From positions 1 through 41,564 of the forward strand of contig JABXIM010000055.1 of the NCBI GenBank assembly GCA_013373085.1: a stretch of DNA of 41,564 nt, given 5' to 3'. Every line of letters starts with the position of its first letter. The first letter of the stretch is position 1. The notes under the pieces are model-generated. The model ran no database searches. It was not told the origin of the DNA and was given only the letters and a program-made list of their open reading frames with translations. A program made the translations under genes and the position numbers. Source of the stretch: Oceanospirillaceae bacterium. GTDB lineage: Bacteria > Pseudomonadota > Gammaproteobacteria > Pseudomonadales > Balneatricaceae. This document shows positions 10,711 to 40,584 of the stretch, in pieces.

Positions 10711-10746
10711 TTGGGGCCTCTTATTCGTAACAGGTATTATTCTTGT

Positions 10747-11641: not shown

Positions 11642-11696
11642 ATAATGCTGAAGTCGGCCTGTTGTTCGCTTGACAATATGCGTGCTCGCTTTGACA
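11642..11696 (-). promoter_or_regulatory. Regulon promoter a: paired TGTCAA boxes and -10 for the 5031-11578 operon
   Basis: On the plus strand TTGACA occurs at 11670-11675 and again at 11691-11696, exactly 21 bases apart. Read toward the gene this is TGTCAA-N15-TGTCAA-N22-CATTAT, with the -10-like hexamer at 11642-11647, about 64 bases before the start codon. No good -35 is present at the standard spacing, which is normal for activator-dependent promoters. Confidence 0.75.
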
Positions 11697-11808
11697 TTAT
11701 CCGCCATTTACGATCGACGTTATTGTCCCGCGTTTGCCACTTTGGACCTGCCCAGCCGATCAGCCAGAGGCGCAGTATTCCTGCCTGAAACAGCAGGGTG
11801 GCACCTTA

Positions 11809-11862
11809 TGTCAAATTCAGAACGCCTTTTGTCAAGCCTCGCGCGGTGGCCTCTCTTAGGCT
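11809..11862 (+). promoter_or_regulatory. Regulon promoter g: paired TGTCAA boxes and -10 for the aldehyde dehydrogenase operon
   Basis: TGTCAA lies at 11809-11814 and 11830-11835 (21-base period), followed after 21 bases by TAGGCT at 11857-11862. This is the only copy on the plus strand, and it precedes the only plus-strand operon in the central region, so orientation tracks gene direction. The predicted leader to the ATG at 12034 is about 165 bases. Confidence 0.75.
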
Positions 11863-12033
11863 GTTTTCTGACGGGAATAGCCAATCGGTCAGGCCGGATT
11901 AAAAGGTTTGCTGGCTGGTGTTTCGAACGCTGTATCAGGGCAGTCCCAGCTGGTAGTTGAAATACAGCTTTTGCCATAGCGCCTGTTAAGGAATCTCCTT
12001 AATACCCTCAGATAAAATAAAACCGAGGTCTAA

Positions 12034-13464
12034 ATGACAAACGCCGCACTACAAGTCGCACAAGAGTCGAGCCGGATCGACAAGGTCTTCAATAATCAGC
12101 GAATCGCTTCTCGCAAGAATCCATATCCGAGCCTGGGTGAGCGTCTGGAAGCGCTCGACAAGATCGACCGGATTCTGATGGATAACCAGGATGCCATTTG
12201 TGCGGCGGTCAACGCGGACTACGGCAACCGTTCCGCGCAGGAAACCAAGCTGCTCGAGATTTCCCAGATGGTCAGCGCCGTCGCCTACCACAAGAAGCAT
12301 CTGAAGAAATGGATGGCGGCGGAAAAACGCCATGTCGGTATCACCTTCTTCGGCGCCAAGAACAAAGTCATCCCGCAGCCCAAAGGCGTCGTCGGCGTGG
12401 TAAGCCCCTGGAACTACCCGCTGGGGCTGGCCATCGGTCCTGCCATCGCTGCGCTGGCGGCTGGCAACCGAGTCATCGTCAAGATGGCGGCCAATTCGCA
12501 GAACCTCTGCAAGCTGCTGGACAAGCTGGTATCGGCCGAGTTCAGCGAAGATCAGTTCGCGGTCATTCCCGGCGTGTCTGCCGGCGAATTCACCGATCGC
12601 CCGTGGGACCACTTCGTTTTCACCGGCTCCCCCGCCACGGGCAAGGTGGTCATGGAAACCGCATCGAAGTATCTGACCCCGGTTACCCTGGAACTGGGCG
12701 GCAAGTCACCGACCATCGTCGCCAAGGACTTCAATATGCGTACGGCTGCCGAGCGCTTGCTGTTCGGCAAGTTCATCAATTGTGGCCAGACCTGTACCGC
12801 GCCGGATTACCTGTTCCTGCCCCGCGAGTCGGTCGATGAGTTCGTCAAGCATGCCAAGGACGTTCTGAACGAGCGCTACGGCAGTGCCGACTCCAAGGAT
12901 TTCACCTCGCTGATCGACGAAAAGGCGTTCGAGCGAATCTGCGATACGGCCACAGACGCTACCCGGAAGGGAGCCAGGGTGGTGCAGCTGGTCAAGAGCG
13001 GCAGCCCGAACAGGTCTGAGCGCAAGTACCCGCCGTCGGTGGTCCTGAACGTCAAGGACGACATGATCATCATGCAGGACGAGATTTTCGGTCCGTTACT
13101 GCCGATCAAAACCTACGACAGCCTCGACGAGGTGATCGAGTACATCAATGCCGGTGAACGTCCGCTGGCGCTGTACCTCTTTTCCAACGACAAGCAGGTT
13201 CAGGATAAGGTCGTTTACAACACCCTGTCCGGCGGGGTTTCGATCAACGATACGCTGCTGCACGTGGCGCAGCATGACATGCCGTTTGGGGGTGTCGGCA
13301 ACAGCGGCATGGGGCACTACCACGGCAAGGAGGGCTTTATCGAGTTCTCCAAGATCCGCCCGGTGTTCAAACAGGCGAAACAGTCAGGGATCCTGATGCT
13401 GGCGCCTCCGTACGGCGACCGCTTCAACAAGCTGATGAACCTGATGCTCAAGTTCCGTCTCTGA
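12034..13464 (+). CDS. NAD(P)-dependent aldehyde dehydrogenase (coniferyl-aldehyde / ALDH3-like)
   Basis: A 476-residue enzyme, the shorter length typical of ALDH3 and coniferyl-aldehyde dehydrogenases. N127 in SPWNYP, the general-base E220 in LELGGKSP and the catalytic C254 in NCGQTC are all present. These enzymes oxidise medium- to long-chain or aromatic aldehydes to acids. It starts an operon with the GldA-like dehydrogenase (21 bases apart), so it probably oxidises the aldehyde made by that enzyme or by the GMC alcohol oxidoreductase at 17824. Ribosome site CCGAGG precedes the ATG. Driven by promoter g. Confidence 0.93.
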   Translation: MTNAALQVAQESSRIDKVFNNQRIASRKNPYPSLGERLEALDKIDRILMDNQDAICAAVNADYGNRSAQETKLLEISQMVSAVAYHKKHLKKWMAAEKRHVGITFFGAKNKVIPQPKGVVGVVSPWNYPLGLAIGPAIAALAAGNRVIVKMAANSQNLCKLLDKLVSAEFSEDQFAVIPGVSAGEFTDRPWDHFVFTGSPATGKVVMETASKYLTPVTLELGGKSPTIVAKDFNMRTAAERLLFGKFINCGQTCTAPDYLFLPRESVDEFVKHAKDVLNERYGSADSKDFTSLIDEKAFERICDTATDATRKGARVVQLVKSGSPNRSERKYPPSVVLNVKDDMIIMQDEIFGPLLPIKTYDSLDEVIEYINAGERPLALYLFSNDKQVQDKVVYNTLSGGVSINDTLLHVAQHDMPFGGVGNSGMGHYHGKEGFIEFSKIRPVFKQAKQSGILMLAPPYGDRFNKLMNLMLKFRL

Positions 13465-13485
13465 ATTAGCTGGAGAGCGTTTTTC

Positions 13486-14664
13486 ATGTCTGACAATCAA
13501 GTGGCGAATGCCGTGGCTCAGGGCACCCGCCTTTACCGATCCACACCCCGTTATATTCAGGCCGCCGGGCTGATCGATACCGCAGCCGAGCCGATTGCCG
13601 CGATGAACGTAAAGCGTTGCGCGGTGCTCTGCACTGTGCGCAGTCAGCGCGGCGAAGCGAAACGTCTGCTGGCCAGCCTCGCGCAGGCTAGCATCGAGGC
13701 CGTCGTTTCCACCTTCGGTGGCGAATGCTCGCTGCAGGAGATCGAAAAGAAGGCGGCTGAGCTGCGTGAGCAGGGCGCCTTCGATGCGCTGATCGCGCTG
13801 GGCGGCGGCAAGACGCTGGATGCCGGCAAGAGCATCGCGCACCGCCTGGGCGTTCCCGTTGTGATCATGCCGACGCTGGCATCGAACGATGCGCCCTGTA
13901 CTGCCGTTTCGGTGCTTTACACGCCTGAAGGGGTCAGTGACTCCTACGAAATTTTTCAGGACAACCCGGCACTGGTGCTGGTCGATACCGCTATCGTTGC
14001 CGAGGCCCCGGCCCGTTTCCTGGTCGCCGGCATGGGTGATGCGATGGCGACCTGGTATGAAGCCCGGATCTGTCATCGCAACCCCAACGGCGTTACGCCG
14101 TATGGTGTTCGCCCGACGCTGGCGGGGGTAGCCCTGTCCGAAACCTGCGCCAGCATCCTTTACGCCGATGGCGTTGCCGCTGTCGAGGCCGTCGAGAGCA
14201 AGCTGGTGACGCCGGCGCTCGAGAACGTCGTCGAAGCCAATACGCTGCTGAGCGGCCTCGGCTTCGAGTGTACCGGTCTGGCGGCTGCGCACGCTGTGGC
14301 TCAGGCACTCACCACGCTGGAGCACGTGGATCGTAACTACCTTCACGGCGAGATGGTCGCGATCGGTATCCTGGTTCAGCTAGCGCTCGAAGGCGATTTC
14401 GAGGAGGCGGAACGCGTTGCGCGTCTGTTTGCGCAGATCGGTCTGCCTGTCACCCTCGAGCAGCTTGGCCTGTCACGAGAGGACGAGCGGTCCATCGCGA
14501 CCGTGATCGAGGCGACCATGGTGTTCCCGCTGATCGGCAACATGATCGAACCGGTCACTGCGGCAAGCGGTTTCAGGGCGTTCCTCGATGCCGACACCCT
14601 CGGTCGCAAGGTCGTCGACGAAATGGGTGATGCGCCTTACCGGAGCCTGCACAACGCGGCTTAA
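13486..14664 (+). CDS. GldA-like glycerol/1,2-diol dehydrogenase (metal-dependent alcohol dehydrogenase)
   Basis: A 392-residue protein resembling E. coli glycerol dehydrogenase (367 aa). The nucleotide-binding stretch GGGKTLDAGKS and the GldA hallmark LASNDAPCTAVSVLYT are clear. The metal ligands D185 (GMGDAMATW), H269 (AAAHAV) and H287 (LHGEM) keep nearly the spacing of the GldA zinc ligands. GldA oxidises glycerol to dihydroxyacetone and accepts 1,2-propanediol and other vicinal diols. Its pairing with an aldehyde dehydrogenase and its place among several 2-hydroxyacid oxidising enzymes favour a vicinal diol or hydroxyketone in the pathway; the true substrate is unknown. A strong terminator follows at 14715. 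Confidence 0.9.
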   Translation: MSDNQVANAVAQGTRLYRSTPRYIQAAGLIDTAAEPIAAMNVKRCAVLCTVRSQRGEAKRLLASLAQASIEAVVSTFGGECSLQEIEKKAAELREQGAFDALIALGGGKTLDAGKSIAHRLGVPVVIMPTLASNDAPCTAVSVLYTPEGVSDSYEIFQDNPALVLVDTAIVAEAPARFLVAGMGDAMATWYEARICHRNPNGVTPYGVRPTLAGVALSETCASILYADGVAAVEAVESKLVTPALENVVEANTLLSGLGFECTGLAAAHAVAQALTTLEHVDRNYLHGEMVAIGILVQLALEGDFEEAERVARLFAQIGLPVTLEQLGLSREDERSIATVIEATMVFPLIGNMIEPVTAASGFRAFLDADTLGRKVVDEMGDAPYRSLHNAA

Positions 14665-14714
14665 GACAACAGCTTCATGGCCCCTGGCGGTGCCCCGGCA
14701 CCGGCACTTTGCTT

Positions 14715-14743
14715 GCCCTGACCCGACCGGTCAGGGCTTTTTT
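14715..14743 (+). terminator. Rho-independent terminator after the aldehyde dehydrogenase operon
   Basis: GCCCTGACC at 14715-14723 and GGTCAGGGC at 14729-14737 form a perfect 9-bp stem with a 5-base loop, followed by six T. It lies 51 bases after the stop of the GldA-like gene. Confidence 0.9.
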
Positions 14744-15038
14744 GTGTTCTGCGCGTTATACCGCCTGAAAAAAGCTCCCAAAACGGTTCATCGCGCTTTA
14801 GCGGGGAAAACGTCATTCGGAGGATGGGCGGAGTTATGCCCCGGCACGGCGTATCCGTCACTGATGCGGCCAGGGCGTCGTGCAACCCATCTTGGGTGTC
14901 GGTTCGGCACTGTGCATGCAGCCGACTCACTGATGGGTTGCGCCGCGTCAACCTCGCTGAAAGCGTTGAACAGGGTGCCAGTGCGGCTCCACCCATCCTA
15001 CTTTTGGCCCCCGGTTTCACGCTAACCTGCGAAGAACC
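14744..15038. other. Non-coding gap with terminal inverted repeats
   Basis: This is convergent intergenic DNA between two terminators. GGATGGGCGGAG at 14822-14833 and CTCCACCCATCC at 14987-14998 are inverted copies differing at one base. They bracket about 150 bases that also contain the inner pair AACCCATC and GATGGGTT. This resembles a small palindromic or MITE-like repeat of the GTAGGATGGG type also seen at 28860-28976. No gene is seen. Confidence 0.5.
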
Positions 15039-15073
15039 CAAAAAAAGCCGGCAGACCAAAAGGCCTGCCGGCT
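15039..15073 (-). terminator. Rho-independent terminator after ilvD
   Basis: On the minus strand AGCCGGCAG and CTGCCGGCT (plus positions 15065-15073 and 15046-15054) form a 9-bp stem, followed by a run of T. It lies about 30 bases beyond the ilvD stop and ends the 15102-19939 operon. Confidence 0.9.
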
Positions 15074-15101
15074 AAAAGGGACGAGCGGGGAGGGGGTTAG
15101 T

Positions 15102-16952
15102 TCAGTCCAGCAGTTCCGGGTCGCGCACACCGCCCTTGTCGGCGCTGGTGGCCAGGGAGGCGTAGGCCTTCAGCGCGAGGCTGACGCGACGCTGGCGCGG
15201 TTCCGCCGGTTTCCAGGCCAGTTTGCCGCGGGCTTCCATCCGCTCGCGGCGTGCAGCCAGCGCTTCGTCGCTGATGTCTACCCTGATGCTGCGGGCCGGA
15301 ATGTCGATCTGGATACTGTCGCCATCTTCGACCAGCGCGAGGTTGCCGCCGTTGGCCGCTTCCGGTGAGGTGTGGCCGATCGAGAGTCCGGAGGTGGCGC
15401 CGGAGAAGCGACCGTCCGTCAGTAGCGCACAGCTGCTGGCAAGTCCCTTGGCCTTGAGCAGGCTGGTGGGCAACAGCATTTCCTGCATGCCCGGTCCGCC
15501 CTTGGGGCCTTCGTAGCGGATGATGAGGCAGGTGCCGTGGTCGATTTCGTCGGCGGTCAGCGCCGCGATAGCCTTGTCCTGATCGTCGAACACGCGCGCA
15601 GTGCCTTCGAACTTCAGGATGCTCGGGTCGACCCCGGCAGTTTTGACGATACAGCCGTCTTCGGCCAGGTTGCCGAACAGTACCGCCAGTCCGCCCTCGC
15701 TGCTGTAGGCATTGTCGATACTGCGGATACAGCCGTTCTCGCGATCCTTGTCGAGCCTGTCCCAGCGGCAATCCTGGCTGAACGCCTCGGTGGTGCGAAT
15801 GCCGGCAGGACCTGCACGGTAGAACTGCTCGACTTCGGCATCGTCGGTGCGGCACACATCCCACTTCTCCAGCGCTTCGGCAAGCGTCTTGCTGTGCACG
15901 GTGCTGACTTCGGTCTTCAGCAGCCTGGCGCGGTCGAGCTCGCCTAGAATGCCGAATACGCCGCCGGCGCGGTGCACGTCTTCCATGTAGTAGTTGGCAG
16001 TGGCCGGGGATACCTTGCAGAGGTGCGGAATTTCCCGTGACAGGCGATCAATATCGGCCATGGTGAAATCGATCTCGCCCTCCTGGGCCGCGGCGAGCAG
16101 GTGCAGGATGGTGTTGGTCGAGCCGCCCATGGCGATATCCATGGTCATGGCGTTGTGGAAGGCGTGGACGTTGGCCACTGAACGCGGCAGCACGCTGTCG
16201 TCGTCCTGCTCGTAGTGGCGCCGGGTGATTTCGACGATTCGACGGCTGGCTTCGAGGAACAGCTCACGGCGATCGGCGTGGGTCGCCAGCATGCTGCCGT
16301 TGCCCGGCAAGGCCAGGCCCAGCGCCTCGGTCAGGCAGTTCATCGAGTTGGCGGTGAACATGCCGGAGCAGGAGCCGCAGGTGGGGCAGGCGTTCTGTTC
16401 CATCTCCAGCACCTTGGCGTCGGAGTTTTCCTTGCGCATGCCGGCAACATAGGCGTCTACCGGATCGATACGCAGCACCTGCTCGGCCAGCTGAACACGG
16501 CCGGCTTCCATCGGACCGCCGGAAACGAAGATGGTCGGAATGTTCAGGCGCATCGCCGCCATCAGCATTCCCGGGGTGATTTTGTCACAGTTGGAGATGC
16601 AGATCAGGGCGTCGGCACAGTGGGCATTGGCCATGTATTCGACGGAGTCGGCGATGATTTCGCGCGAGGGCAGGCTGTACAGCATGCCATCGTGTCCCTG
16701 GGCGATGCCGTCGTCCACCGCGATGGTGTTGAATTCCTTGGCGATGCCGCCCGCGTCTTCGATTGCCTTGACGACCAGCTGACCGATGTCCTTCAGGTGG
16801 ACATGCCCAGGCACGAACTGGGTGAATGAGTTGGCGACCGCGACGATCGGCTTGCCGAAATCATTGTCGCATACGCCGGTCGCGCGCCAGAGTGCGCGGG
16901 CACCGGCTGCTTCACGGCCATGGGTGACCTGCTTCGAGCGATAATTGGCCAT
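15102..16952 (-). CDS. ilvD: Dihydroxy-acid dehydratase
   Basis: A 616-residue protein, the same length as E. coli IlvD and alike throughout the N-terminal region. The Fe-S cysteines C122 ([10 protein letters not shown]) and C195 (CPTCGSCSG), the Mg-binding aspartates D81 and D123, and K124 are all present. It dehydrates 2,3-dihydroxyacids to 2-oxoacids, normally in valine and isoleucine synthesis. Here it is the last gene of an operon with a GMC oxidoreductase and a 2-keto-4-pentenoate hydratase-like protein, behind promoter b, so a catabolic dihydroxyacid role is plausible; it may alternatively be the only biosynthetic copy. Ribosome site AAGGGG precedes the ATG. Spacing to the upstream gene is 12 bases. 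Confidence 0.95.
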
Positions 16953-16964
16953 TAAGAGTACCCC

Positions 16965-17756
16965 TTATTTGAAGCTCAGGTTGACGTCGCCGAGGCCGCT
17001 GTCGAAGCGGGCGGTGACCACATCGCCGGCCTGGACCGGCAGGGCGCGAACGCAGGAACCGGAGAAAATCACGTCGCCGGGCTCGAAGGCGACGCCGAAT
17101 TCGGCGAGCTTGTTGGCCAGCCAGGCGACCGCGGTGACCGGGTTACCGAGGACGGCGGCGGACAGGCCCCGCTCGAGCGCTTCGCCATTGATCAGCAGTT
17201 CGCCTTCGATCCTGCGCACGTCGATGTCGGTGAGTTTGACCGGGTTGCCGCCGAGCACCACCTTGCCGACGGCAGCCATGTCGGCGATGGTGTCGCGCAC
17301 GTCCATTCCCGGTGCGCGAGCGATGCGAAAGTCGACCACCTCGATGGACGGCAGAATGAAGTCGGTCGCGCGGATAACGTCAGCGGCGTTGATGCCCGGC
17401 CCCTGCAGATGGTCTTTCATGACGAAGGCGATTTCGATCTCGACCAGCGGATCGCTGAAGCTGTCGCGCTCGAGATGGGCGTCCTCATCGACGAACATGT
17501 TGTCGAGCAACACGGAATAATCCGGCTCGTTGGTGCCGGCCATCTCCTGCATCGCCTTCGAGGTCAGGCCGATCTTGTAGCCCTTGATCTTGTGTCCTTC
17601 GTCGACGAAGCGGCCGACCACCTGTTCCTGGATGCGGTAGGCATCCTCGGTTTCGATTTCGGGATAGGATTGGGTGAGCAGGGAGATCTGTCGGGTGCTC
17701 TTGTAGCAGTCGAAGATCTCCTGGGCGATCGCCTGACGGGTTTCGTTGTTGAGCAT
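16965..17756 (-). CDS. 2-keto-4-pentenoate hydratase-like protein (FAH family)
   Basis: A 263-residue protein of the MhpD/DmpE branch of the fumarylacetoacetate-hydrolase fold. VEIEIAFVMKDHLQGPG carries the paired glutamates used as metal ligands, and YKIGLTSKAMQ is the family's substrate-loop stretch. Family enzymes add water to 2-hydroxypenta-2,4-dienoate or decarboxylate 4-oxalocrotonate. No aldolase or acylating aldehyde dehydrogenase of the meta-cleavage pathway is nearby, so the classical role is not supported by context. An in-frame ATG at 17801 exists, but CAGGAT lies before the ATG at 17756, which gives the usual N-terminus. Part of the operon driven by promoter b. Confidence 0.88.
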   Translation of the reverse strand: MLNNETRQAIAQEIFDCYKSTRQISLLTQSYPEIETEDAYRIQEQVVGRFVDEGHKIKGYKIGLTSKAMQEMAGTNEPDYSVLLDNMFVDEDAHLERDSFSDPLVEIEIAFVMKDHLQGPGINAADVIRATDFILPSIEVVDFRIARAPGMDVRDTIADMAAVGKVVLGGNPVKLTDIDVRRIEGELLINGEALERGLSAAVLGNPVTAVAWLANKLAEFGVAFEPGDVIFSGSCVRALPVQAGDVVTARFDSGLGDVNLSFK

Positions 17757-17823
17757 TGCAATATCCTGGATTGTGTATGGGGTAGCGGCGCCAATTGGCA
17801 AGCCACTACACGGGATCTGAGGT

Positions 17824-19365: not shown

Positions 19366-19366
19366 A

Positions 19367-19939
19367 TCAAACACCCATCTGTTGAACTGGATTCGGACGC
19401 TTCACCAGCGGACCGTCATAGCCGATGTGCGGCCAGGCGTCTTCGTGGGTGTAAAAGTAGAAAATGCTCAGTCCACGCATCGCGGAGAAAATAATGGTCG
19501 GTACACCGCCGGCATCGCGCATTGCAAGCAGAATGGATTCGCGTTCGCTCGTTTCGAGGTCGGAAAACCTGGCAGTTTTACCGGCGAAGGCTTCCGGTGC
19601 CTTATTTTCGATAAACATCAGTGCACCGCTAACACCCGCTACTACGTCGGTCAGCTCAGCTTTGAGATGATGGTCGATGCGAGCTGCAAGATCGATATCC
19701 AGAGCGCCGATGGGGAAGGCGCCACTCTGCGGAATGATTGCATCGGTGACGGCGGCGAGGGTGCGATACTCCTCGCTGGACAGTATTTTCAGCGTTGGCG
19801 TTTGGCCCGATGTGACGGCGGTGGACGTCAGTGCCTGTGAGCCGAGCACCGGTGTGGCGGCGACGGCTGCCATTGCAATCAGCGACCGTTGCAGAAACAG
19901 TCTGCGCGTGGTGGACGGGAGCGGGTTGTTATTATCCAT
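19367..19939 (-). CDS. Gluconate 2-dehydrogenase subunit 3-family protein with Tat signal
   Basis: A 190-residue protein whose N-terminus carries a twin-arginine signal (TRRLFLQ with R12 and R13, followed by a hydrophobic alanine-rich stretch), predicting folded export to the periplasm. The rest matches the gluconate_2-dh3 family: FKILSSEEYRTL-like opening, ALDIDLAARIDHHL and a C-terminal FFYFYTHEDAWPHIGYDGP-like aromatic region. Family members are the small subunits of membrane-linked GMC dehydrogenases. No cytochrome c subunit is found in the window, so electrons must go to an unlinked carrier. Ribosome site AAGG lies 9 bases before the ATG. First gene of the operon. Confidence 0.87.
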   Translation of the reverse strand: MDNNNPLPSTTRRLFLQRSLIAMAAVAATPVLGSQALTSTAVTSGQTPTLKILSSEEYRTLAAVTDAIIPQSGAFPIGALDIDLAARIDHHLKAELTDVVAGVSGALMFIENKAPEAFAGKTARFSDLETSERESILLAMRDAGGVPTIIFSAMRGLSIFYFYTHEDAWPHIGYDGPLVKRPNPVQQMGV

Positions 19940-20278
19940 ATTGTTCAGCCTTGTTCTAGTTATGGCCTGATGGAGATATCACCTGTTTATATGCGGTGCG
20001 GGTTGTTTCGCCTTGAGGACTTTACCGAGTACAGTTTCTGGCAAATCCGTTAGCGGACAGATGCATTAAACGGGTGGCTGTCGTTAAAGCTTTTCATGCT
20101 CACCATGCTAGGAAGGTGCCGGGCGTTCATCTTGACAATAGATGTCGTGGTGTTGACTTCAGACGACAAGTACAGCGATGTCGGGGTTTATATAGACGCA
20201 AGTGCGCCATGGTCAATTAACCGAAAATTCAGACGGCTTTATTTGTTGAATTAAACCTTCGGGCACCTTCGTGTCGGT
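19940..20278. other. Upstream region of the GMC operon
   Basis: No gene is visible. The interval holds promoter b (20105-20158) and about 120 bases of A/T-richer sequence after the stop of the FAD oxidoreductase gene, with no clear terminator hairpin. Confidence 0.6.
20105..20158 (-). promoter_or_regulatory. Regulon promoter b for the GMC-hydratase-ilvD operon
   Basis: The plus strand has TTGACA at 20132-20137 and TTGACT at 20153-20158 (21-base period, one mismatch in the distal box). Read toward the gene: AGTCAA-N15-TGTCAA-N21-TAGCAT, with the -10 at 20105-20110. The predicted leader is about 160 bases. Confidence 0.72.
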
Positions 20279-21652
20279 TCAGCTCAGCACCTTGCCCGGG
20301 TTGAGCAGGTTTTTCGGGTCCAGCGCCTGCTTGATTACCTGCATTAGCGCGATTTCCGCCGTTGAACGGCTGTATTTCAGATAGGGCTTCTTGTCGAGGC
20401 CGATGCCGTGTTCCGCCGATATCGAACCGCCAATGCCGTTCAGGCCGCCGTATACCAATTCCTCGACTGCCGCCTTGTCGCTTTGGGGCACCTGTCCGAT
20501 GATGATATGAAGATTGCCGTCGCCCAGGTGGCCGAACACGATGCACCGATTATCGGTCCAGTGCCGGTCGAGTTCGGACTGAAGCGTATCGATATAAGGT
20601 TCCATGGCCGAGATCGGCAGGCTGACGTCGAAGGCGTGGATCGGGGAGAGCTCGAACAAGGCTTCTACATCGTCGCGGATCGCCCAGATCTTCTCGCGCT
20701 CACTGTCCGACTGGGTCAGCACGGCGTCGCTGATCAGTTCACATTCCAGCGCCTGGCCGAGCAGGTTTTCGAGGCGCTCCTGTTCCTGCTCGTTGCTGTT
20801 ACCCTGGGTTTCGATAATGACGTAATAGGCTGACTGAGCCGGAAGCGGCGCACGGTGCCGGTCGGTGCCGGTGACCAGGTCATAAAAGCTGTGCCACATG
20901 ACTTCAAAAGAACTCAGCCCGCCTCCCAGACCGGACTCGGCCAGGTTCAGCAGTCGGCTAAGGTTGGCGAAGTCATCGACCGCGACCAGAGCGGTCGCTC
21001 CGCCCAGCGGCTTGGAGCGCAGACGCAGTACCGCCCGGGTGACGATGCCCAGCGTGCCTTCGGTGCCGATAAAGAGGTGGGGCAGACTGTAGCCGGTGTT
21101 GTTCTTCAGCACCTTGGACATCGACGAGATGATGGTGCCGTCGGGCAGTACGGCCTCCAGGCCGAGGATGGAATCGCGGGTCATGCCGTAGCGAAGCACC
21201 CGGTTACCGCCGGCGTTAGTGGCGATGGTACCGCCGATGGTGGCGGTGCCGCGGGCGCCGAGGTCGACAGGATAGTAGAGACCCTCTTCCTCGGCCACCT
21301 CCTGCACGGTCTGCAGGTTCACGCCTGACTCGACGGTCATGGTTCGGTTCTGGATGTCGATCTCGACGATATTGCGCATCCGTTCCAGCGAGATGACGAT
21401 ATCGTGGGTGGTTGTCCGGGCGCCGCCGACCAGGCCGGTGAGGCCACCCTGAACGACGACCGACTGATTGTGCTCATGGCAGAGTTTCATCACCGCCGAC
21501 AGCTCACCGGTATCGGCCGGACGTACGATCGCCTGCGCCTTGCATGCAGGCGCACTGTGCCAGCCATCCTGGCGCTGGGTGACGTCGTCGCCGGTCAGGA
21601 TACCCTTTTCACCGACGATCGCGGTGAGTTCTTCAGTCAAATTCATCGTCAT
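20279..21652 (-). CDS. GlcD-like FAD-linked 2-hydroxyacid dehydrogenase (D-lactate / D-2-hydroxyglutarate type)
   Basis: A 457-residue flavoprotein of the usual length for GlcD and D-2-hydroxyglutarate dehydrogenases. The FAD-binding VAO-fold half has VVVQGGLTGLVGGA near 65-78, GGTIATNAGG and FIGTEGTLGIVT. The C-terminal half has the HLGDGNLH and EHGIG motifs with metal or substrate-binding histidines, ending in DPKNLLNPGKVL. These enzymes oxidise D-2-hydroxyacids to 2-oxoacids and feed the respiratory chain. It is a single-gene unit behind promoter c, so its expression is predicted to match the FMN enzyme at 5402 and the NAD enzyme at 6599. ACAGG lies 6 bases before the ATG. Confidence 0.92.
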   Translation of the reverse strand: MTMNLTEELTAIVGEKGILTGDDVTQRQDGWHSAPACKAQAIVRPADTGELSAVMKLCHEHNQSVVVQGGLTGLVGGARTTTHDIVISLERMRNIVEIDIQNRTMTVESGVNLQTVQEVAEEEGLYYPVDLGARGTATIGGTIATNAGGNRVLRYGMTRDSILGLEAVLPDGTIISSMSKVLKNNTGYSLPHLFIGTEGTLGIVTRAVLRLRSKPLGGATALVAVDDFANLSRLLNLAESGLGGGLSSFEVMWHSFYDLVTGTDRHRAPLPAQSAYYVIIETQGNSNEQEQERLENLLGQALECELISDAVLTQSDSEREKIWAIRDDVEALFELSPIHAFDVSLPISAMEPYIDTLQSELDRHWTDNRCIVFGHLGDGNLHIIIGQVPQSDKAAVEELVYGGLNGIGGSISAEHGIGLDKKPYLKYSRSTAEIALMQVIKQALDPKNLLNPGKVLS

Positions 21653-21747
21653 GCTAAACCTGTTTCTTATAGTTCGGATGCGTCAAGCCCCACCGGGGGG
21701 CTTCCGCCAGCGGAAGTTGAAGTGGGTTACTTCCTAAAACGTTAGTA

Positions 21748-21801
21748 AATATGGTGGGAATGACGATCGGCGGCTTGACAGCAGATGTCTTGCGATTGAC
21801 A
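21748..21801 (-). promoter_or_regulatory. Regulon promoter c for the GlcD-like gene
   Basis: TTGACA lies at 21775-21780 and 21796-21801 on the plus strand. Read toward the gene: TGTCAA-N15-TGTCAA-N21-CATATT, with the -10-like hexamer at 21748-21753. Both boxes are exact. It also lies directly after the araC-type gene's 3' end. Confidence 0.75.
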
Positions 21802-21916
21802 TTTTACGCCAGCGCCAGGGTGCTCAGTCGCGGGTGGCGCTTGTCGCGCCAGGCCTGCGGACCGGGGCCGGCCGATATCCCGGAGCCCGCAGGTTTCCGG
21901 GTCCGATGACGGTCGC

Positions 21917-22948
21917 CTAACCTGATACGGTGGCGTGGGTTTCGGGGGCCTGGCGCCATTGTTGGGGCGATATGCCGGACCAGCGCTTGAACGCGCGCGA
22001 GAAGGCGCTCAGCTCCGAATAGCCAAGATTCAGGGCGATTTCGGTGAGGGTGTAGTGTCTTTCCAATGCGTCGCGGGCGAGCTGATAACGCACCTCGTCG
22101 ACGAGGGTTCGGAACTCGGTACCTGCCAGCTGCAGCTCCCGCTGCAACGTCCGCACATTCATTCCCAGCATGGGCGCAATCGTCGGCAGCGTCGCTTCGC
22201 CGGTGGATATGAGCTCGAAAATCAGTTTCGATACCTTGTACTGCAGCGGTCGTTCGTGACCTTTCGATTCCCGTTCCAGAAACGACTCGAGATAGTTCTT
22301 GATTTCGTCCGTGACAGGGGTCGGCTTTTGCCTGAGAAGCTGGGTCGGGAAAATGATGGCATTCTTCTCCTGCTTGAAGAAAATCCTGGCATCGGTATAG
22401 CGCTGGTATTCTTCCTCGCTGGCAAGGGGGCTGTGCGTGAAATGGATCTTGGCCCGTGGCATCCAGTCGGGCGCCATCTCTTTCAATACGTTGTAACCGA
22501 GGCCGAGGCTGAGTTCGAACGTCTGCTCCGGGCTGATGGACGGATCGAGATCGAAGGTGAGCTCCAGTTCGGTCTCCCTTTCATTCACCGTCAAATCGAT
22601 GATCGCGCCCCGGGCGTGAAAATGGAAATATTTCTGGATCACGCTCAGGGCGTCCGCCACGGTAGCGCTTTCGGCCGCCAGCAGCCCCAGTGGGCCGAAT
22701 ATCTTCAGACCCTGATAGCATGACAGGGCGAGTCCGAACAGCGGCAAGTCGGCGGTATCGGCGCCCCGGTTGAGCACATGACATAAGCTCTCATAGGGGA
22801 TCATCAGCTCAGACGACCTGAGCACGGTGCTGGAAAGCCCCTCTTCTGCGAGCAGCTTGATGGGGTTGATCTGTAACCGCCGGCACAGGGGATACAGTCC
22901 CATCAGCGCGCTGCTTTTGACCTGGGCAGTGGTCTTCGGCTGTGACAT
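21917..22948 (-). CDS. AraC-family transcriptional regulator (candidate regulon activator)
   Basis: A 343-residue protein with the OruR/ArgR-type layout. An N-terminal ligand-sensing domain (about 1-190, Arabinose_bd type, FGLALSCYQGLKIFGPLGLL) precedes a C-terminal double helix-turn-helix (about 245-335). The latter has MLGMNVRTLQRELQLAGTEF as the first recognition unit, and LTEIALNLGYSELSAFSRAF then WSGISPQQWR as the second. Such proteins bind direct repeats about 21 bases apart next to the -35 region. Six promoters of exactly that form surround the gene, and it is the only AraC gene in the window, so it is the best candidate activator. AAGG sits 7 bases before the ATG at 22948; the ATG two codons upstream (22954) is worse placed. 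Inducer unknown. Confidence 0.92.
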   Translation of the reverse strand: MSQPKTTAQVKSSALMGLYPLCRRLQINPIKLLAEEGLSSTVLRSSELMIPYESLCHVLNRGADTADLPLFGLALSCYQGLKIFGPLGLLAAESATVADALSVIQKYFHFHARGAIIDLTVNERETELELTFDLDPSISPEQTFELSLGLGYNVLKEMAPDWMPRAKIHFTHSPLASEEEYQRYTDARIFFKQEKNAIIFPTQLLRQKPTPVTDEIKNYLESFLERESKGHERPLQYKVSKLIFELISTGEATLPTIAPMLGMNVRTLQRELQLAGTEFRTLVDEVRYQLARDALERHYTLTEIALNLGYSELSAFSRAFKRWSGISPQQWRQAPETHATVSG

Positions 22949-22980
22949 GGCCATACCTTTATTATTTGTATTTGGCTCTG

Positions 22981-23009
22981 ATAATTGATCGCTTGACGTA
23001 AACTGTCAA
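22981..23009 (-). promoter_or_regulatory. Sigma70-type promoter of the AraC gene with an internal half-site
   Basis: On the minus strand TTGACA (plus 23004-23009) is followed after 17 bases by AATTAT (plus 22981-22986), a reasonable sigma70 promoter. A lone TTGACG (plus 22993-22998), close to the regulon box, lies inside the spacer. A regulator bound there would block RNA polymerase, so negative autoregulation is plausible. The start codon follows after about 30 bases. Confidence 0.6.
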
Positions 23010-23040
23010 ATGTCGACCGGGTTGACTGGACTCAGGCCTT

Positions 23041-24853: not shown

Positions 24854-24856
24854 GAC

Positions 24857-26828: not shown

Positions 26829-26887
26829 TCAAGCCGGTACTTGGAGACTTTCGGGCTGTTACGTATTAAGTCCGACAGGCACCTAAA

Positions 26888-28693: not shown

Positions 28694-28743
28694 TGTTATC
28701 TCCGTCGGATACCCTGTTGGTACCCACTTATTATTTTGCAAAC

Positions 28744-28797
28744 AGGATAGGGAAACCGGTCGCGTAAGGTTTGACATATTACGCAACTGGATTGACC
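28744..28797 (-). promoter_or_regulatory. Regulon promoter e for the DUF3604-parvulin-HupE operon
   Basis: TTGACA lies at 28771-28776 and TTGACC at 28792-28797 on the plus strand. Read toward the gene: GGTCAA-N15-TGTCAA-N21-TATCCT, with the -10 at 28744-28749. The ATG is about 50 bases further on. The 20 bases beginning at 28771 differ at only two positions from those beginning at 40579 in promoter d. Confidence 0.72.
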
Positions 28798-28833
28798 GAA
28801 TACGTCAGGATGAAATGGAGCTGGCAACCATAA

Positions 28834-28855
28834 AAAGCCCTCTGCAGAGGGCTTT
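28834..28855. terminator. Symmetric hairpin flanked by A and T runs
   Basis: AAAGCCCTCTGCAGAGGGCTTT is a perfect 22-base palindrome with short A and T tails. It could terminate transcription arriving from the IorAB-type operon at its left end, and shield promoter e. Confidence 0.65.
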
Positions 28856-28859
28856 GATT

Positions 28860-28976
28860 CGTAGGATGGTTGTAACGATGCGTTGGTACGGAATTCAATG
28901 AATGACGCAGGTCGTAGGATGGGTGTAGCGATGCCTTTGCACTGGATTCAATGGCTTACGCATGACCATCCTACGA
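28860..28976. repeat. GTAGGATGG-type dispersed repeat: two direct copies and one inverted end
   Basis: CGTAGGATGGTTGTAACGAT at 28860 is repeated 53 bases later at 28913 as CGTAGGATGGGTGTAGCGAT. Both copies continue with a similar ATTCAATG...ACGCA tail. CCATCCTACGA at 28966-28976 closes the unit in inverted orientation. The same core occurs at 14822-14998. Elements of this look are scattered between genes in many gammaproteobacteria; mobility is inferred, no transposase is present. Confidence 0.75.
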
Positions 28977-29005
28977 TTTGTTCACAGCTTCCCGAGCAGC
29001 TCAGG

Positions 29006-32515: not shown

Positions 32516-32567
32516 GTTCCTGTACTCCATCGGTCGCGGCGCGGGGTCGACGCACCGCGAAAACCCC

Positions 32568-35838: not shown

Positions 35839-35840
35839 TA

Positions 35841-36986
35841 TTAGTTACCTACGGTGACAGCATCGGCATGAACGCCGGCCGGTCCGGCCATCAGCAGGCC
35901 CTTGGTTTCGCTTTCGAGCACTTTGCTCAGCGGCAGACGGGACGCATCGCGACGGGTGTCAGTGACCTGGCCGCTGGCATCGATATGCAGCGACACACCG
36001 CCGGCGCCGACCAGAACGACGGAACCGTCGTTCAACATGGTGCCGCTGAAAAGGCTCGAGTCCACGCCGGTATCGATGATCTCCCAGGTATCCCCCCAGT
36101 CCCCGGACTGGAAAGCGTTGCCCCGCAGGCCATATGCGATGAGCCGGCCCCGGGCATTGCCGGTTATCCCAAAGAAAGAGCCTTCATAGGGACTTTCGAG
36201 CATTTCCCAGCTCTGTCCCCAGTCACCGGAGCGGTAGAGTGTGCCGGCTTCCGCGGCGATATAGAGGTGATCGCCGATCCGGGAAATGGCGTTGAGGTGA
36301 AAGTTGGACGCGTTGTCCATGTGGTCATACCACGCCGACCAGGTTTCGCCTCCGTCGGTGGTACGCAGCATCAGGCCGAACGCGCCGACCACGATGCCTT
36401 CGTTACGGTCCTTGAACCAGACATCGAGGAACGGACGGCTGGGGCCTTCGTCGGTGAACGCTTCGGCGTCGTCGGCCATGTAGGTGCGTGCTTCAAGCTC
36501 GGCTTCCAGCTCTTCGCGCTGGTCTTGCGGGGCGGTTTCGATCCTGTCCTCGAACGCCGCCAGGCGAGCCTGGGCATGCGCCAGCATCACTTCGTTGGCA
36601 CGATTGCCATCCAGTACCTTGCGCCAGGTCTTGCCGCCGTCCTCGGTCTTGAGCACGACGCCGTCGTGTCCGACCGTCCAGCCGAAGCTGTCGTCGACGA
36701 AGAAGCTGTTGGTCAGGGTTACGCGTACCGGCGTCGCGACCTGCTGCCAGTTGCGACCCTCGTCAGCGGAAAGCAGGATGTGGCCCCGTTCGCCGACAGC
36801 GACAATATGGTTGCCGGCGCGTTCGATGTCCATCAGCAGGCTGTGAGCCGCCAGTGGGGACATGATGGCGCCTTCATCGAGTGCGTCGGCAGCCAGGGTG
36901 CTTCCTGAAAGCGCCAGCCCCGCCAGGAGGCAAAGACTGGTTCGCGCTCGAGCCGGTTTAAAAACGGTTTGAGTGTGCTTTTTCAT
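35841..36986 (-). CDS. YCF48-like/BNR-repeat beta-propeller, exported
   Basis: A 381-residue protein with signal peptide ending SGSTLAADA. It has at least five Asp-box or BNR-type repeats: SADEGRNW, TEDGGKTW, TTDGGETW, SGDWGQSW and SGDWGDTW, each followed by a beta strand. This indicates a beta-propeller of the YCF48/HCF136 family, named for photosystem II assembly but common in non-photosynthetic bacteria next to RND and DUF1302/DUF1329 genes. A periplasmic scaffold or adaptor for the transporter is the likeliest role (inference). The stop is 2 bases before the RND gene's ATG. A GTG six codons upstream (37004) is possible; the ATG at 36986 is chosen because it leads straight into the signal peptide. 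Confidence 0.85.
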   Translation of the reverse strand: MKKHTQTVFKPARARTSLCLLAGLALSGSTLAADALDEGAIMSPLAAHSLLMDIERAGNHIVAVGERGHILLSADEGRNWQQVATPVRVTLTNSFFVDDSFGWTVGHDGVVLKTEDGGKTWRKVLDGNRANEVMLAHAQARLAAFEDRIETAPQDQREELEAELEARTYMADDAEAFTDEGPSRPFLDVWFKDRNEGIVVGAFGLMLRTTDGGETWSAWYDHMDNASNFHLNAISRIGDHLYIAAEAGTLYRSGDWGQSWEMLESPYEGSFFGITGNARGRLIAYGLRGNAFQSGDWGDTWEIIDTGVDSSLFSGTMLNDGSVVLVGAGGVSLHIDASGQVTDTRRDASRLPLSKVLESETKGLLMAGPAGVHADAVTVGN

Positions 36987-37164
36987 AAGTTTGTTCTTGT
37001 TCACAGTCGTACCGGGGCGGTCCCGGCAGGTTGGTCAATGGCCACTGGACGCTATTGCGGCAGAACGCTCGGAGCGAACATGCTTCCGGAATAGCGGTAA
37101 GGAACTTGTTCATAGGTTCCTTAAATGAGACCGGCGCTTTCGCGCCGGTCCCGGTTTCCGCTGG

Positions 37165-38529
37165 TTAGCGGCGAGCCATCTGGCGCACGTTCTGCGGGGA
37201 GTAGTAGTTATCGTCCTTGGTCGCCTGCGGGACGTATGGAACGGTGTCGTACTCCTGCACCGCGTAGTCACCGGACTGCAGGTCGTAGTTGGTGACGCCT
37301 CGGGCGATGATATTGCCGTCGTTGTACAGGGCGACCGGGTGCGAATGGCCAAAACGCCACAGTTCACCGCGACCGTCGTACATGTCGGCCATCAGTACGA
37401 ACCAGGAGTCCTCGTCGATGTAGAAGCGACGCTTGCCGTAGATATGACGGCTGTCCTCGCGCAGGGTAGCCTCGACAACCCAGACACGATGCTTTTCCCA
37501 GCGTTCGAAATCGGGGTTGGTATGGTTGGCCGGCCAGAGGTCCTCGAACGAGGTGCCGTTCTCGTGGGCATTGAGGAACTTGTACGAGTTGTACGGCACC
37601 AGCATTTCATGCTTGCCGATCAGCTCCCAGTCGAAGCGTTCCGGCGAACCGTTGAACATGAAGGCCTGGTCGTAGGTGGTCAGACCGTTGGAGCCCGGAT
37701 CCGGGGTATCGAAGGCGATGGTCGGCGCGCGGCGGACACGACGCTGGCCGGGGATGTACTGCCATGCCTGCCTGGGTGCCTCGCTGGCGTTGACCGGGTC
37801 GCGTACCAGCGTGACTTCGCCCTTGCGGCGGGTCGGCAATGAATACTCGAGCAACAGCTGGATGATGTTGCCGTTGAAGCTGCTGAGGCTGCCGTCCTTG
37901 TAGTAGTAGGGGTAGGTCTCGGTCAGATGACCGGCCGTGACGGCGCGGGAGCCGTTGGCGTAGATCGTGGCGCTCTCGTAGGTAGCATCCTTGCCTTCGC
38001 CGTACCAGCGCAGGGTGTGGTTCCAGATCGCCTCGTTGCCGTTCTGCGGAATCGGGAACGGAATACCGCCGTAGGCATTGGTTACACCGTTGCCGTCCGG
38101 GGTCAGTTCGGCGTTGAGGGCGTTGTTAAAGGTGTTTTCGGCGACCCAGTCCGGAATCGGAGCGGTACGGTGGGTCGGGTAGACGTTCATCCTGAAGCTC
38201 GGGTACTTGGCGAACAGCGCCTTCTGACCGTCGGAGAGCAGGGCGTCGTATTCCTTGTAGTTCTGTGCGGTGACGGTGTACAGCGGCTTTTCGTCGGCGA
38301 ACGGATCGACCGGGTTCTTGCCCTCGACGTGGCCGGCCGGGGCGCTGGTCAGACCGCCGGTCCACTCGGGAATATCGCCGGCGGCGTTTCCGGCACGCTC
38401 TGCGCCGAACGGTGTCAGTTCGTTTTTCAGCTTGGCGGCTTCTTCCGGCGAAACCTTGGCAATGGCGAGGCCGGCGTTCAGGGCGAGTGCGGTAACGGTC
38501 GCTGCGAGAATGGATCTCTTGAAGCTCAT
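37165..38529 (-). CDS. DUF1329 periplasmic/outer-membrane-associated protein
   Basis: A 454-residue protein with signal peptide MSFKRSILAATVTALALNAGLAIA. It has DUF1329 hallmarks: an early AAKLKNELTPFGAERAGN, GGL in the next strand, YPTHR, PGQRRVRRAPTIAFDTP, and RRFYIDEDSWFVLMADMYD near the end. The fold is related to the LolA/LolB lipoprotein-carrier family (general knowledge), and these proteins usually accompany DUF1302 proteins and RND transporters. A role in carrying a hydrophobic compound across the periplasm is inferred. GAGGAG stands 9 bases before the ATG at 38529; an ATG-less extension to 38550 is unlikely. The next gene begins about 180 bases further on. Confidence 0.88.
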   Translation of the reverse strand: MSFKRSILAATVTALALNAGLAIAKVSPEEAAKLKNELTPFGAERAGNAAGDIPEWTGGLTSAPAGHVEGKNPVDPFADEKPLYTVTAQNYKEYDALLSDGQKALFAKYPSFRMNVYPTHRTAPIPDWVAENTFNNALNAELTPDGNGVTNAYGGIPFPIPQNGNEAIWNHTLRWYGEGKDATYESATIYANGSRAVTAGHLTETYPYYYKDGSLSSFNGNIIQLLLEYSLPTRRKGEVTLVRDPVNASEAPRQAWQYIPGQRRVRRAPTIAFDTPDPGSNGLTTYDQAFMFNGSPERFDWELIGKHEMLVPYNSYKFLNAHENGTSFEDLWPANHTNPDFERWEKHRVWVVEATLREDSRHIYGKRRFYIDEDSWFVLMADMYDGRGELWRFGHSHPVALYNDGNIIARGVTNYDLQSGDYAVQEYDTVPYVPQATKDDNYYSPQNVRQMARR

Positions 38530-38577
38530 GGTATTACTCCTCAGGCACAAACCTGATTGTTTTTATGGATGTATGCG

Positions 38578-40188
38578 TTAGAAGCTGTACTTGTAGTACG
38601 CGGCGAGATAATCGCGGTCGGCGTTGAGGTTGCCGAACGCCAGGCCACCGTCTTCCTTGATGATGTCTTTAGGGTTAGCCAGGAACCAGACGTAGCTGGC
38701 GCCGAACTTGTGCTTACCGAGGTAGGTGAAGTCGGTTTTCAGCGCGAACTGTTCGTTGCTCTCGGTGAAGGTGTAGGACAGCGACGAACGACCGCTGAAG
38801 TCGTTGCGATAGGTACCGGTAACGGACATGTCCAGACCGCCGACGAGGTTGAAGTAGTCGGCTTTCAGGCTGACCACGCCAGCGGCGGCGCCGATGTCGT
38901 TCTTGCGGGCAATCTGGTTCTTGAGCTTGCCGCTGCGACCGTCGACATCCAGTACGCGGTTGTAGCCCAGTTCGCCAATCAGCGTCATGTTATCGGCCAG
39001 CGGGTTCTGCGGCAGGATGTAGATCGCCGAGACCTGGGCCTGCATGGTTTCGGCCGATTCGAACTTGAAGCCCGGCTCGTTGACCTGCACCGGCTGTCCG
39101 TCGCGGTAGGACACTTCACCGCTGACGTTGACGTCGCCGAGTACGGTGCCGAAGCTCAGACCGTAGAGGTCGATATCCTCGAAGTACTCGTGGTGCATGG
39201 GTATTGAACCTGCGGGCGACAGAACCTGCAGCGACGGGGTGAAGTCGTTGTAGTTCAGGTAGTAGAAGCCGAACTCGGTGCTGTTGAGGTTTTCCGCCAG
39301 ATAGCGCAGCGCGATACCGTACTGGCCTTCATCGGGCGTGTCTTCGGTAACCGGTAAACCAACGCCCAGCACCGACTCACCAAAGAGGTCGCCAACCGAC
39401 TTCTGACCGAAGCCGTCGAGGATGTTGAAGTAGGTGCCCGGAGCGTCGATGCGGGTTTCTTCCCAGTCATACTGGTAGTAGGCGCCCAGCGACAGGTTGT
39501 CGGTCAGGGTCATTTCGCCGTAGACCTGGCCGATCGGCATGAAGATATCCTTCAGCTCGGTGCCCGGTGCGTTCGCCTTGGTCGCGTCGAGCGGGCCCTG
39601 GGCGGTGGAAATGCCGCCCTGCAGGTACAGGCTCTCGCCCCAGTTGACCACCTGCTCGCCGACGCGCAGGCTGAGGAACTGGTCGCCAATGTTGAAACCG
39701 TGATACCAGAACGTATCCAGCAATTCGACCTTGGACTTGTGCTCGTCGATACCGTCCTGCTGGAAGGATTCGCGGGCCAGGTCGCCGTCGTCGTAGACTT
39801 CGTCGTACCAGCCACGGGCACGCACGAAGACACCGCCGTCGCCGTAGTTGGCGTCCAGGTCGGTGCCGAAGCTGACGCGGTTCTGCGTCATATCGCCTTC
39901 GTCGAAGTTGCGGTTGCCGTCATCGGTCAGATCGCCGAGGCGTACGCCGCTTGGATCGATGAAGTCGAGAATCTCCTTGGACTGGTCCTGCATACGCCAC
40001 TGAGCGTCGTAGGTCAGGGTGGTGTCCAGGTCGATGGTCACGCCATTATCGAGTTCGAAGTTGAGAGCGTAAGCCTGCGGTGCAGCGATCGTTACCAGCG
40101 CTGCGGCCAGCATTGCCTGCCGTACACCAAGGCTCAGCGGCTTGCGTTTGGTACAGAGTTTTCCTGAATGGGCGAAGGCTTGGTTCAT
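38578..40188 (-). CDS. DUF1302 outer-membrane beta-barrel protein
   Basis: A 536-residue protein with a long basic N-terminus and signal peptide (RQAMLAAALVTIAAPQAYA), then LNFELDNGVTIDLDTTLTYD, the standard DUF1302 opening. The rest is strand-rich, with alternating aromatic residues, and ends YLAAYYKYSF, whose final Phe fits the beta-signal used for outer-membrane insertion. It is probably a channel or receptor for the compound handled by the RND/DUF1329/YCF48 set. The ATG at 40188 is chosen; a GTG at 40221 extends the same frame, and both lie near GAGG. First gene of the largest operon (to 29006), with a leader of about 340 bases after promoter d. Confidence 0.88.
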   Translation of the reverse strand: MNQAFAHSGKLCTKRKPLSLGVRQAMLAAALVTIAAPQAYALNFELDNGVTIDLDTTLTYDAQWRMQDQSKEILDFIDPSGVRLGDLTDDGNRNFDEGDMTQNRVSFGTDLDANYGDGGVFVRARGWYDEVYDDGDLARESFQQDGIDEHKSKVELLDTFWYHGFNIGDQFLSLRVGEQVVNWGESLYLQGGISTAQGPLDATKANAPGTELKDIFMPIGQVYGEMTLTDNLSLGAYYQYDWEETRIDAPGTYFNILDGFGQKSVGDLFGESVLGVGLPVTEDTPDEGQYGIALRYLAENLNSTEFGFYYLNYNDFTPSLQVLSPAGSIPMHHEYFEDIDLYGLSFGTVLGDVNVSGEVSYRDGQPVQVNEPGFKFESAETMQAQVSAIYILPQNPLADNMTLIGELGYNRVLDVDGRSGKLKNQIARKNDIGAAAGVVSLKADYFNLVGGLDMSVTGTYRNDFSGRSSLSYTFTESNEQFALKTDFTYLGKHKFGASYVWFLANPKDIIKEDGGLAFGNLNADRDYLAAYYKYSF

Positions 40189-40529
40189 TGCCTTGATTTC
40201 CTCATTTGTTTTTTTTATCACTGCTTGGAACAGACTTCCGACCGGTCAGGACGAGCACCAGCGGATCTCTGGGCCAAAGAGGCCAGATAAACTGAATAGG
40301 GGAGTCTTTCCCGTGCGGAAAAATGTCTGAGTGAAGGTTGTGTCAGGGATGTAAAAAAAGCGGTTCTTCATCGTAATTGCCACTCGTTTTATTATTGTTG
40401 GCGCTCTCAGTAACGGGCTTCAAATAAACAGCGACTCGCACGGAATTTGAGGTCTCTGCCTGTTTGAAATCTCGCCTGGCCGGGCCTGTTCAGCTGACCG
40501 GCAATAGGTCTTGCTCACGTTATGACGAG

Positions 40530-40584
40530 ACTTTAATCTTTCGGCTGTCTGCCGGGCTTGACATAAGGTGAAATGCAATTGACA
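40530..40584 (-). promoter_or_regulatory. Regulon promoter d for the DUF1302-to-IorAB operon
   Basis: TTGACA lies at 40558-40563 and 40579-40584 on the plus strand. Read toward the gene: TGTCAA-N15-TGTCAA-N22-TAAAGT, with the -10 at 40530-40535. Both boxes are exact. The distance to the start codon is the longest of the set (about 340 bases). Confidence 0.75.

Follow-up and report, generated by a model that had tools for sequence, protein, structure and literature searches.

Tandem TGTCAA half-sites before six operons of an Oceanospirillaceae gene cluster as probable operators of its AraC-type regulator

In contig JABXIM010000055.1 of Oceanospirillaceae bacterium (assembly GCA_013373085.1) six operons are each preceded by a pair of TGTCAA boxes, and the locus raises the question of which protein reads these boxes and whether it governs the six operons together. 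The whole stretch of 41,564 nucleotides, called the window in this study, is the entire contig C8 of its genome. A first-pass annotation had described a single promoter design, TGTCAA-N15-TGTCAA with a -10 hexamer 21 or 22 nucleotides further on (N21 or N22), and had attributed it to the AraC protein encoded at 21917 as one regulon of about 19 genes. Judging from the sequence, the six elements are very probably the operators of this AraC-type protein (21917-22954), through which the six operons would be jointly induced. The sites, with their scores in bits against a matrix trained on other genomes, and the regulator are as follows.

11642..11703, minus strand: site a; contact C 11703, boxes 11696-11691 and 11675-11670, -10 CATTAT 11647-11642 at N22, held-out score 37.6
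11802..11862, plus strand: site g; contact C 11802, boxes 11809-11814 and 11830-11835, -10 TAGGCT 11857-11862 at N21, held-out score 44.3
20105..20165, minus strand: site b; boxes 20158-20153 (AGTCAA) and 20137-20132, -10 TAGCAT 20110-20105 at N21, held-out score 35.7
21748..21808, minus strand: site c; boxes 21801-21796 and 21780-21775, -10 CATATT 21753-21748 at N21, held-out score 39.0
28744..28804, minus strand: site e; boxes 28797-28792 (GGTCAA) and 28776-28771, -10 TATCCT 28749-28744 at N21, held-out score 36.3
40530..40591, minus strand: site d; boxes 40584-40579 and 40563-40558, -10 TAAAGT 40535-40530 at N22, held-out score 42.3
21917..22954, minus strand: AraC-family regulator with Arabinose_bd (PF12625) and HTH_18 domains, probable binder of the six sites

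The places, strands, 21-bp period and orientation of the paired boxes were all reproduced by pattern search, and the six -10 hexamers were found again at the same distances. Four pairs are exact and two carry one mismatch in the distal box (sites b and e), as annotated; the rule that the mismatch always falls in the distal box fails in relatives, where proximal boxes reading TATCAA and GGTCAA occur. Tandem half-sites with a 21-bp period at all six places, the proximal one reaching the -35, correspond to the layout of AraC class II promoters.

The two hexamers are real but constitute only half of the motif, since each half-site includes a further C upstream. In 42 aligned sites from nine genomes the half-site was tGtCRynwwaTGTCAA; the step is 10 bp from one of its elements to the other and 21 bp from half-site to half-site, giving a contact spacing of 10-11-10 across the whole site. 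The almost invariant C (contact C) stands seven bases upstream of each TGTCAA; it was present at -7 in 42/42 sites and at +14 in 41/42, and the next base was a purine in 42/42 and 41/42, respectively. Neither contact C was demanded by the site search. On the other hand, a TCA core was required in both boxes (one site per promoter, at most 3 mismatches), so that the TCA columns are invariant by construction. The first element is less preserved in the proximal half-site than in the distal one. Array copies (G005 8972, 8993 and 46422; G006 20496; G058 18611), reverse sites upstream of araC and matches judged to be due to chance were left out of this set, and the listing of relatives' sites omitted intragenic matches with more than one mismatch. 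Three to four boxes instead of two follow one another at a 21-bp period before the DUF1302 operon of G005 (C3:8972-9040), G006 (C8) and G058 (C41).

Matches with zero or one mismatch in the window were exactly the six named sites; with up to two mismatches there were 10, compared with 1.8 ± 1.45 (maximum 6) in 100 shuffles. In the 5.78-Mb genome there are four exact matches, all inside the window. When one mismatch was allowed, 25 matches were obtained against 21 for the reversed pattern, and the one-mismatch count outside the cluster is therefore about that expected by chance. The held-out matrix, built from 31 sites of other genomes alone, gave 35.7-44.3 bits to the six sites, 13.5 to the next place in the window and at most 12.4 to the reversed window; G060, which is nearly equal to G059, was left out of the matrix and of the -10 counts. 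Many equally good sites inside genes, which the first-pass annotation had named as a finding that would speak against a regulon, were not encountered in this genome: a single one of the 19 outside one-mismatch matches scored like a cluster member (33.9; next 16.6), and it lies between open reading frames (ORFs). Two extended-pattern matches of the same genome, on C9 and C76, were rejected as they lie inside genes and scored 12.0 and below 6.

Among the nine regulator-bearing genomes 27 of 29 exact matches fell inside the cluster, including one reversed site upstream of araC in G059 and another in G060 (cluster/total: G000 4/4, G005 5/5, G006 2/2, G058 3/4, G059 4/4, G060 4/4, G061 3/3, G062 1/1 among the matches listed, G086 1/2). 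The exact site outside the cluster at G058:C1:216703 was discarded; it is without the second contact C and scored below 6. The extended pattern, with both Cs and a T before each box, was searched in 14 genomes and gave 28 matches in eight regulator-bearing genomes, 27 of them in the cluster, while its reversed form gave none in the 14. Six genomes without an ortholog of the regulator (G001-G004, G036 and G055) had zero exact and zero extended-pattern matches.

The distance to the -10 gave a signal as well. Hexamers at N20-22 behind the proximal box were scored by a consensus -10 matrix, and the signal reached z 9.2 in 37 cluster sites, 4.1 in the six window sites and 5.8 in 16 sites adjacent to AraC genes in other genomes. 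By arithmetic, with a 17-bp spacer the -35 would share its first one or two bases with the end of the proximal box. The sequence at this expected -35 (AAGCCC and similar) is unlike TTGACA, as expected of an activator-dependent promoter. No signal was obtained for antisense promoters from the operon sites.

An orthologous cluster is present in G005, G006, G058, G059, G060 and G061, with the gene order mostly kept and some genes missing or inserted; it is shortened and rearranged in G086, and G062 has AraC plus the coenzyme A (CoA) ligase only. The AraC search at E 1e-60 (293 genomes of the order and 369 of the class, best candidates scored) yielded one further ortholog, that of G086, and among named records that have the regulator Marinobacterium nitratireducens is the nearest, with an AraC 80% identical. 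Among the genomes with the gene in the fetched region, sites were found before the DUF1302 operon in 7/7, and before the DUF3604, gluconate-2-dh3-like, aldehyde dehydrogenase and decarboxylase/CoA ligase genes in 8/8 each. In G086 the aldehyde dehydrogenase is now the divergent neighbour of araC, and the aldehyde dehydrogenase, DUF3604 and gluconate-2-dh3-like operons retain their sites; the sites moved along with their genes.

The protein encoded at 21917 matched PF12625 with 95.1 bits (cut-off 27.6) and HTH_18 with 71.5 (cut-off 33.6), and is thus a PF12625-type member of the AraC/XylS family. Its relation to the motif was also assessed away from the cluster. In the 291 genomes of the order outside its own genome and G086 the motif gave 103 matches, all of which were fetched with flanks and none dropped. 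Nineteen of them have an AraC-type ORF within 1.5 kb, and in 16 the ORF is in contact with the site or at most 104 bp from it, whereas a random placement of all 21 AraC ORFs in the fetched 908 kb would leave about 3 adjacent (our own arithmetic, which is cautious as the adjacent ORFs are counted among the 21). PF12625 and HTH_18 are present in all 16 adjacent proteins, as in the window AraC, and 15 of the 16 sites are upstream and point away from the AraC gene; at L102 the site is behind the gene, on the same strand. Foreign ORFs were called mechanically and several AraC ORFs matched the query in the DNA-binding part only; among the 16, the L158 and L159 proteins are identical and the AraC ORF of L091 is short (161 amino acids). 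In G176 (L100) the site is 104 bp from the AraC gene and points to an operon with DUF1302 and DUF1329 genes. This adjacency, and G176 in particular, links the motif with regulators of this type on grounds that do not involve the cluster. AraC genes with tandem TATCAA-type sites of the same geometry were seen at L097 (7787 and 11310, two sites 3.5 kb apart), L158, L159 and L160 (4001).

The regulator gene itself appears to have a promoter of its own.

22981..23009, minus strand: probable araC promoter; TTGACA 23009-23004, 17 nucleotides, AATTAT 22986-22981

It agrees with the consensus in 10/12 bases and was the best sigma70 match in both scanned stretches, although overall both scans gave no more promoter-like sites than shuffles. 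Its TTGACA is a half-site (contact C plus TGTCAA) read on the plus strand, and a protein bound there would cover the -35; from this position, the regulator probably represses its own gene. The reversed half-site is present upstream of araC in 9/9 genomes. The hexamer 17 bp after TTGACA is -10-like in most of the nine and poor in some (AATCTG, GAAGAT), and the mean -10 score peaked at spacings 17 (2.56) and 14 (2.36). This scoring covers 8/9 genomes, as in G061 a nearer TTGACA without contact C was taken; the conserved copy of G061 was read by eye. A general use of the reversed distal box as the -35 of a neighbouring araC was rejected at foreign divergent sites, where the -10 score at 16-18 bp ranked 36 of 38 (p 0.997, n=14), and the case for the araC promoter is therefore that of the nine genomes with the cluster.

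The proposed mechanism is that two AraC monomers would bind head to tail on the two half-sites tGtCRynwwaTGTCAA, 21 bp apart, each monomer using its two helix-turn-helix motifs to read the C-centred element and, a helical turn on, the TGTCAA, so that the four contacts would be on the same face of the DNA. With its end 21-22 bp before the -10, the proximal half-site would cover the edge of the poor -35, where the bound protein may recruit sigma70 RNA polymerase (class II activation), presumably once a compound of the pathway binds the N-terminal domain. The outcome would be a joint induction of the six operons (22 genes), which would serve to take up, export and oxidise an organic substrate, while over the TTGACA of araC the protein would probably limit its own synthesis. 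The sites, the -10 distance, the conservation and the linkage to AraC genes were computed; binding by the 21917 protein, activation, the ligand and autorepression are what we infer from them.

The earlier proposal of one regulon withstood the conservation of sites before orthologous operons, their retention in G086, the fixed -10 distance, the held-out matrix and the occurrence of the motif beside AraC genes of the same domain type; its extent was revised from about 19 to 22 genes by co-orientation, plus araC with its own likely promoter. Several results weigh against it. The -10 sequences are weak, and the site before the GlcD-like gene (site c) passes the criteria in only 2/7 genomes, the other five having a degenerate site or none by eye. 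The aligned genomes are related and so do not count as independent cases. The mere presence of the motif is unspecific: it looked decisive from the six ortholog-free genomes, which was undone by at least one match in 78 of the 293 genomes of the order, and we consequently judged by position and neighbouring genes. No AraC gene lies within 110 bp of 87 of the 103 foreign matches, and these 87 showed no -10 signal at N20-22 (z 0.1, p 0.46). The failure of the reversed-box idea at foreign sites weakens the autorepression step. Additionally, a second AraC gene in four relatives and two paralogues in the own genome, with similar sites, mean that the pairing of paralogues and sites is not fixed. In the same order-wide scan the extended pattern gave 108 matches against 18 for the reversed control (about six times commoner, counted from the table); the matches are mostly TATCAA-type and away from AraC genes.

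The pairing of paralogues and sites is the basis of the alternative that survives best, namely that the elements are real operators of the same AraC subfamily but that control is shared or crossed between paralogues, so that the 21917 protein alone would not control all six; we consider it unlikely. A second AraC gene, 43-47% identical to that of the window, is near the first in G058, G059, G060 and G061 (loci L057-L060 and L048-L056). The own-genome paralogues on C82 and C196 are 30-31% identical and have similar divergent sites about 43-60 bp upstream (scores 26.6 and 13.2); the reading frame of the C196 paralogue has one internal stop. As the code is shared among AraC regulators, the presence of a match is no proof of control by a given paralogue. 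Against crossed control, the cluster in the window has a single AraC gene, G005 and G006 likewise have one in the fetched cluster region and hold the same sites, and the paralogue-side sites score lower with the cluster matrix. Two intergenic sites of the own genome outside the cluster score like its members and are listed with one of M. lutimaris.

C82: likely satellite site, score 33.9, -10 TAGCAT at N21, before an aldehyde dehydrogenase gene
C99: likely satellite site, score 31.4, -10 TAATCT at N21, upstream of a small ORF (L080 6387-6674) and of a short-chain dehydrogenase gene
M. lutimaris: site outside the cluster, score 29.1, -10 TAAACT at N21, upstream of an NMT1/ABC transporter operon, after which comes a PQQ dehydrogenase gene

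The C82 satellite may belong to the paralogue, since C82 also holds that AraC gene, which has a divergent site of its own. A short-chain-dehydrogenase-like frame with an early stop was noted by eye immediately upstream of the satellite (L079 7000-7180).

Much less probable is a reading of the elements as Pho boxes, or as some other direct-repeat system built on a TGTCA core, to which a response regulator such as PhoB would bind. In relatives, some of the sites have the sequence TGTCATAAAATGTCAA, which is near the PhoB repeat, given as GTCA(C/T) spaced by a 6-bp A/T-rich sequence in the available portion of PMC8041468. By eye, however, and with no Pho-box model applied, the Pho-box form was not recognised: the unit is TGTCAA and not TGTCAY, with A in the last place in 42/42 sites; the spacing is 10-11-10 instead of a regular 11; and two of the four elements keep little beyond one C and a purine. 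In addition, the distance to the -10 is 21-22 bp, the genes appear to be catabolic, and in other genomes the motif stands beside AraC genes. Chance or compositional repeats merely resembling promoters deserve almost no credence, for although the one-mismatch matches outside the cluster are about as many as in the reversed control, the gap of the held-out matrix exceeds 20 bits, the sites are conserved over eight other genomes and the -10 distance is fixed.

Reading the elements as AraC operators allows a comparison with described systems. At Escherichia coli pBAD, I1 and I2 form a direct repeat of period 21 bp, and in each a GC-type element precedes the second element by one turn. According to the available part of PMC11434276, AraC is bound next to RNA polymerase and its proximal I2 site (-35 to -51) overlaps the -35, and in this overlap pBAD is like the window sites; the window motif differs in its letters, serves six operons and has a reversed half-site over the -35 of the regulator promoter. 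For SphR of Pseudomonas aeruginosa, the accessible text of PMC3900636 describes inducer-dependent binding to direct-repeat half-sites TGNCCSNNRNNSNCC separated by 6-8 bp, that is, a period of 21-23, with two Cs 10 bp apart within the half-site as in the window motif; its half-site ends in CC and not TGTCAA, and SphR has three target promoters. One motif of P. aeruginosa GliR (PA3027) overlaps the -35; the reported motif is YYGGCGHTDTYSGMC, and the portion of PMC8151288 at hand describes no 21-bp tandem repeat. The GliR family NF050186 matched the window AraC at 103.7 bits, far under its cut-off of 570. The best NCBIfam match was QhpR (NF049968), which regulates quinohemoprotein amine dehydrogenase, at 221.6 bits, below the equivalog cut-off of 250; no qhp-type gene was recognised among the families matched in the window, and no published description of the QhpR binding site was found. 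For MtlR, the part of the description available gives a pair of 15-bp blocks, at -72 to -58 and at -50 to -36, with a period of 22 bp. The closest solved chain to the window AraC is VirS. In the openly licensed literature no description of this operator or of a code common to the PF12625 group was recognised; the layout is that of the classic AraC activator, and the regulon and its DNA motif appear to be new.

More widely, it is an even question whether the code C-N6-T(G/A)TCAA-N8-C-N6-T(G/A)TCAA, with a -10 20-22 bp on, may be common to many PF12625-type AraC regulators across this gammaproteobacterial order, their targets being readable from the DNA, and whether here the reversed half-site over the araC -35 would make one element both activator site and autorepression brake. 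A half-site code beside other PF12625-type AraC genes would allow the prediction of targets from sequence. In the present cluster, of about 30 kb, catabolic and rich in little-known families (DUF3604, DUF1302, DUF1329, HupE/UreJ-like), assigning a regulator and an operator would imply that the genes act together. Gene identities were determined by Pfam and NCBIfam, and operon membership by co-orientation.

10784-11578 down to 5402, minus strand: operon a; acetoacetate-decarboxylase-like 10784-11578, CoA ligase 9073-10749, GntP permease 7586-8959, 2-hydroxyacid dehydrogenase 6599-7531, FMN dehydrogenase 5402-6577
12034-14664, plus strand: operon g; aldehyde dehydrogenase 12034-13464, Fe-ADH 13486-14664; terminator-like hairpin 14715-14737
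19367-19939 down to 15102, minus strand: operon b; gluconate-2-dh3-like, GMC oxidoreductase, FAA-hydrolase-fold, IlvD; terminator-like hairpin 15073-15046
20279-21652, minus strand: operon c; GlcD-like FAD oxidase
start codon about 28693, down to 23041, minus strand: operon e; two DUF3604, PpiC-like, HupE/UreJ
down to 29006, minus strand: operon d; DUF1302, DUF1329, YCF48-like, MMPL/HAE3-like, Usp, indolepyruvate ferredoxin oxidoreductase; terminator-like hairpin 28855-28834

Totals of the terminator scan were not above those of shuffles (13 vs 14.7 and 11 vs 16.5), and strong hairpins stand directly behind operons b, g and d. From the enzyme set, we infer a hydrophobic alcohol or hydroxy acid as the substrate of the cluster. 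In the literature on DUF3604 and on QhpR nothing on mechanism was found.

The first four genes of operon d (DUF1302, DUF1329, YCF48/COG4447-like and HAE3-type RND) match in kind and order AmeABCD of Castellaniella defragrans, described in the available part of PMC6394551 as a cassette for apolar monoterpene efflux. The HAE3 assignment is by TIGR00921 at 139.7 bits, below the cut-off of 351.9, while MMPL is above its own cut-off. The likeness is one of gene kind and order, and operon d differs in that genes for Usp and indolepyruvate oxidoreductase come after them. Neither AraC nor regulator occurs as a word in the main text of that paper.

The decarboxylase gene of operon a (ADC/MppR-like, 10784-11578), which lies between site a and the CoA ligase gene, had no match in the cluster regions fetched from relatives, in which the gene after the site is that of the CoA ligase. 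Near the 2-hydroxyacid dehydrogenase gene of the same operon (6599-7531), a short ORF at 5031-5384 of the window contains a partial 2-hydroxyacid dehydrogenase catalytic domain and is possibly a gene remnant.

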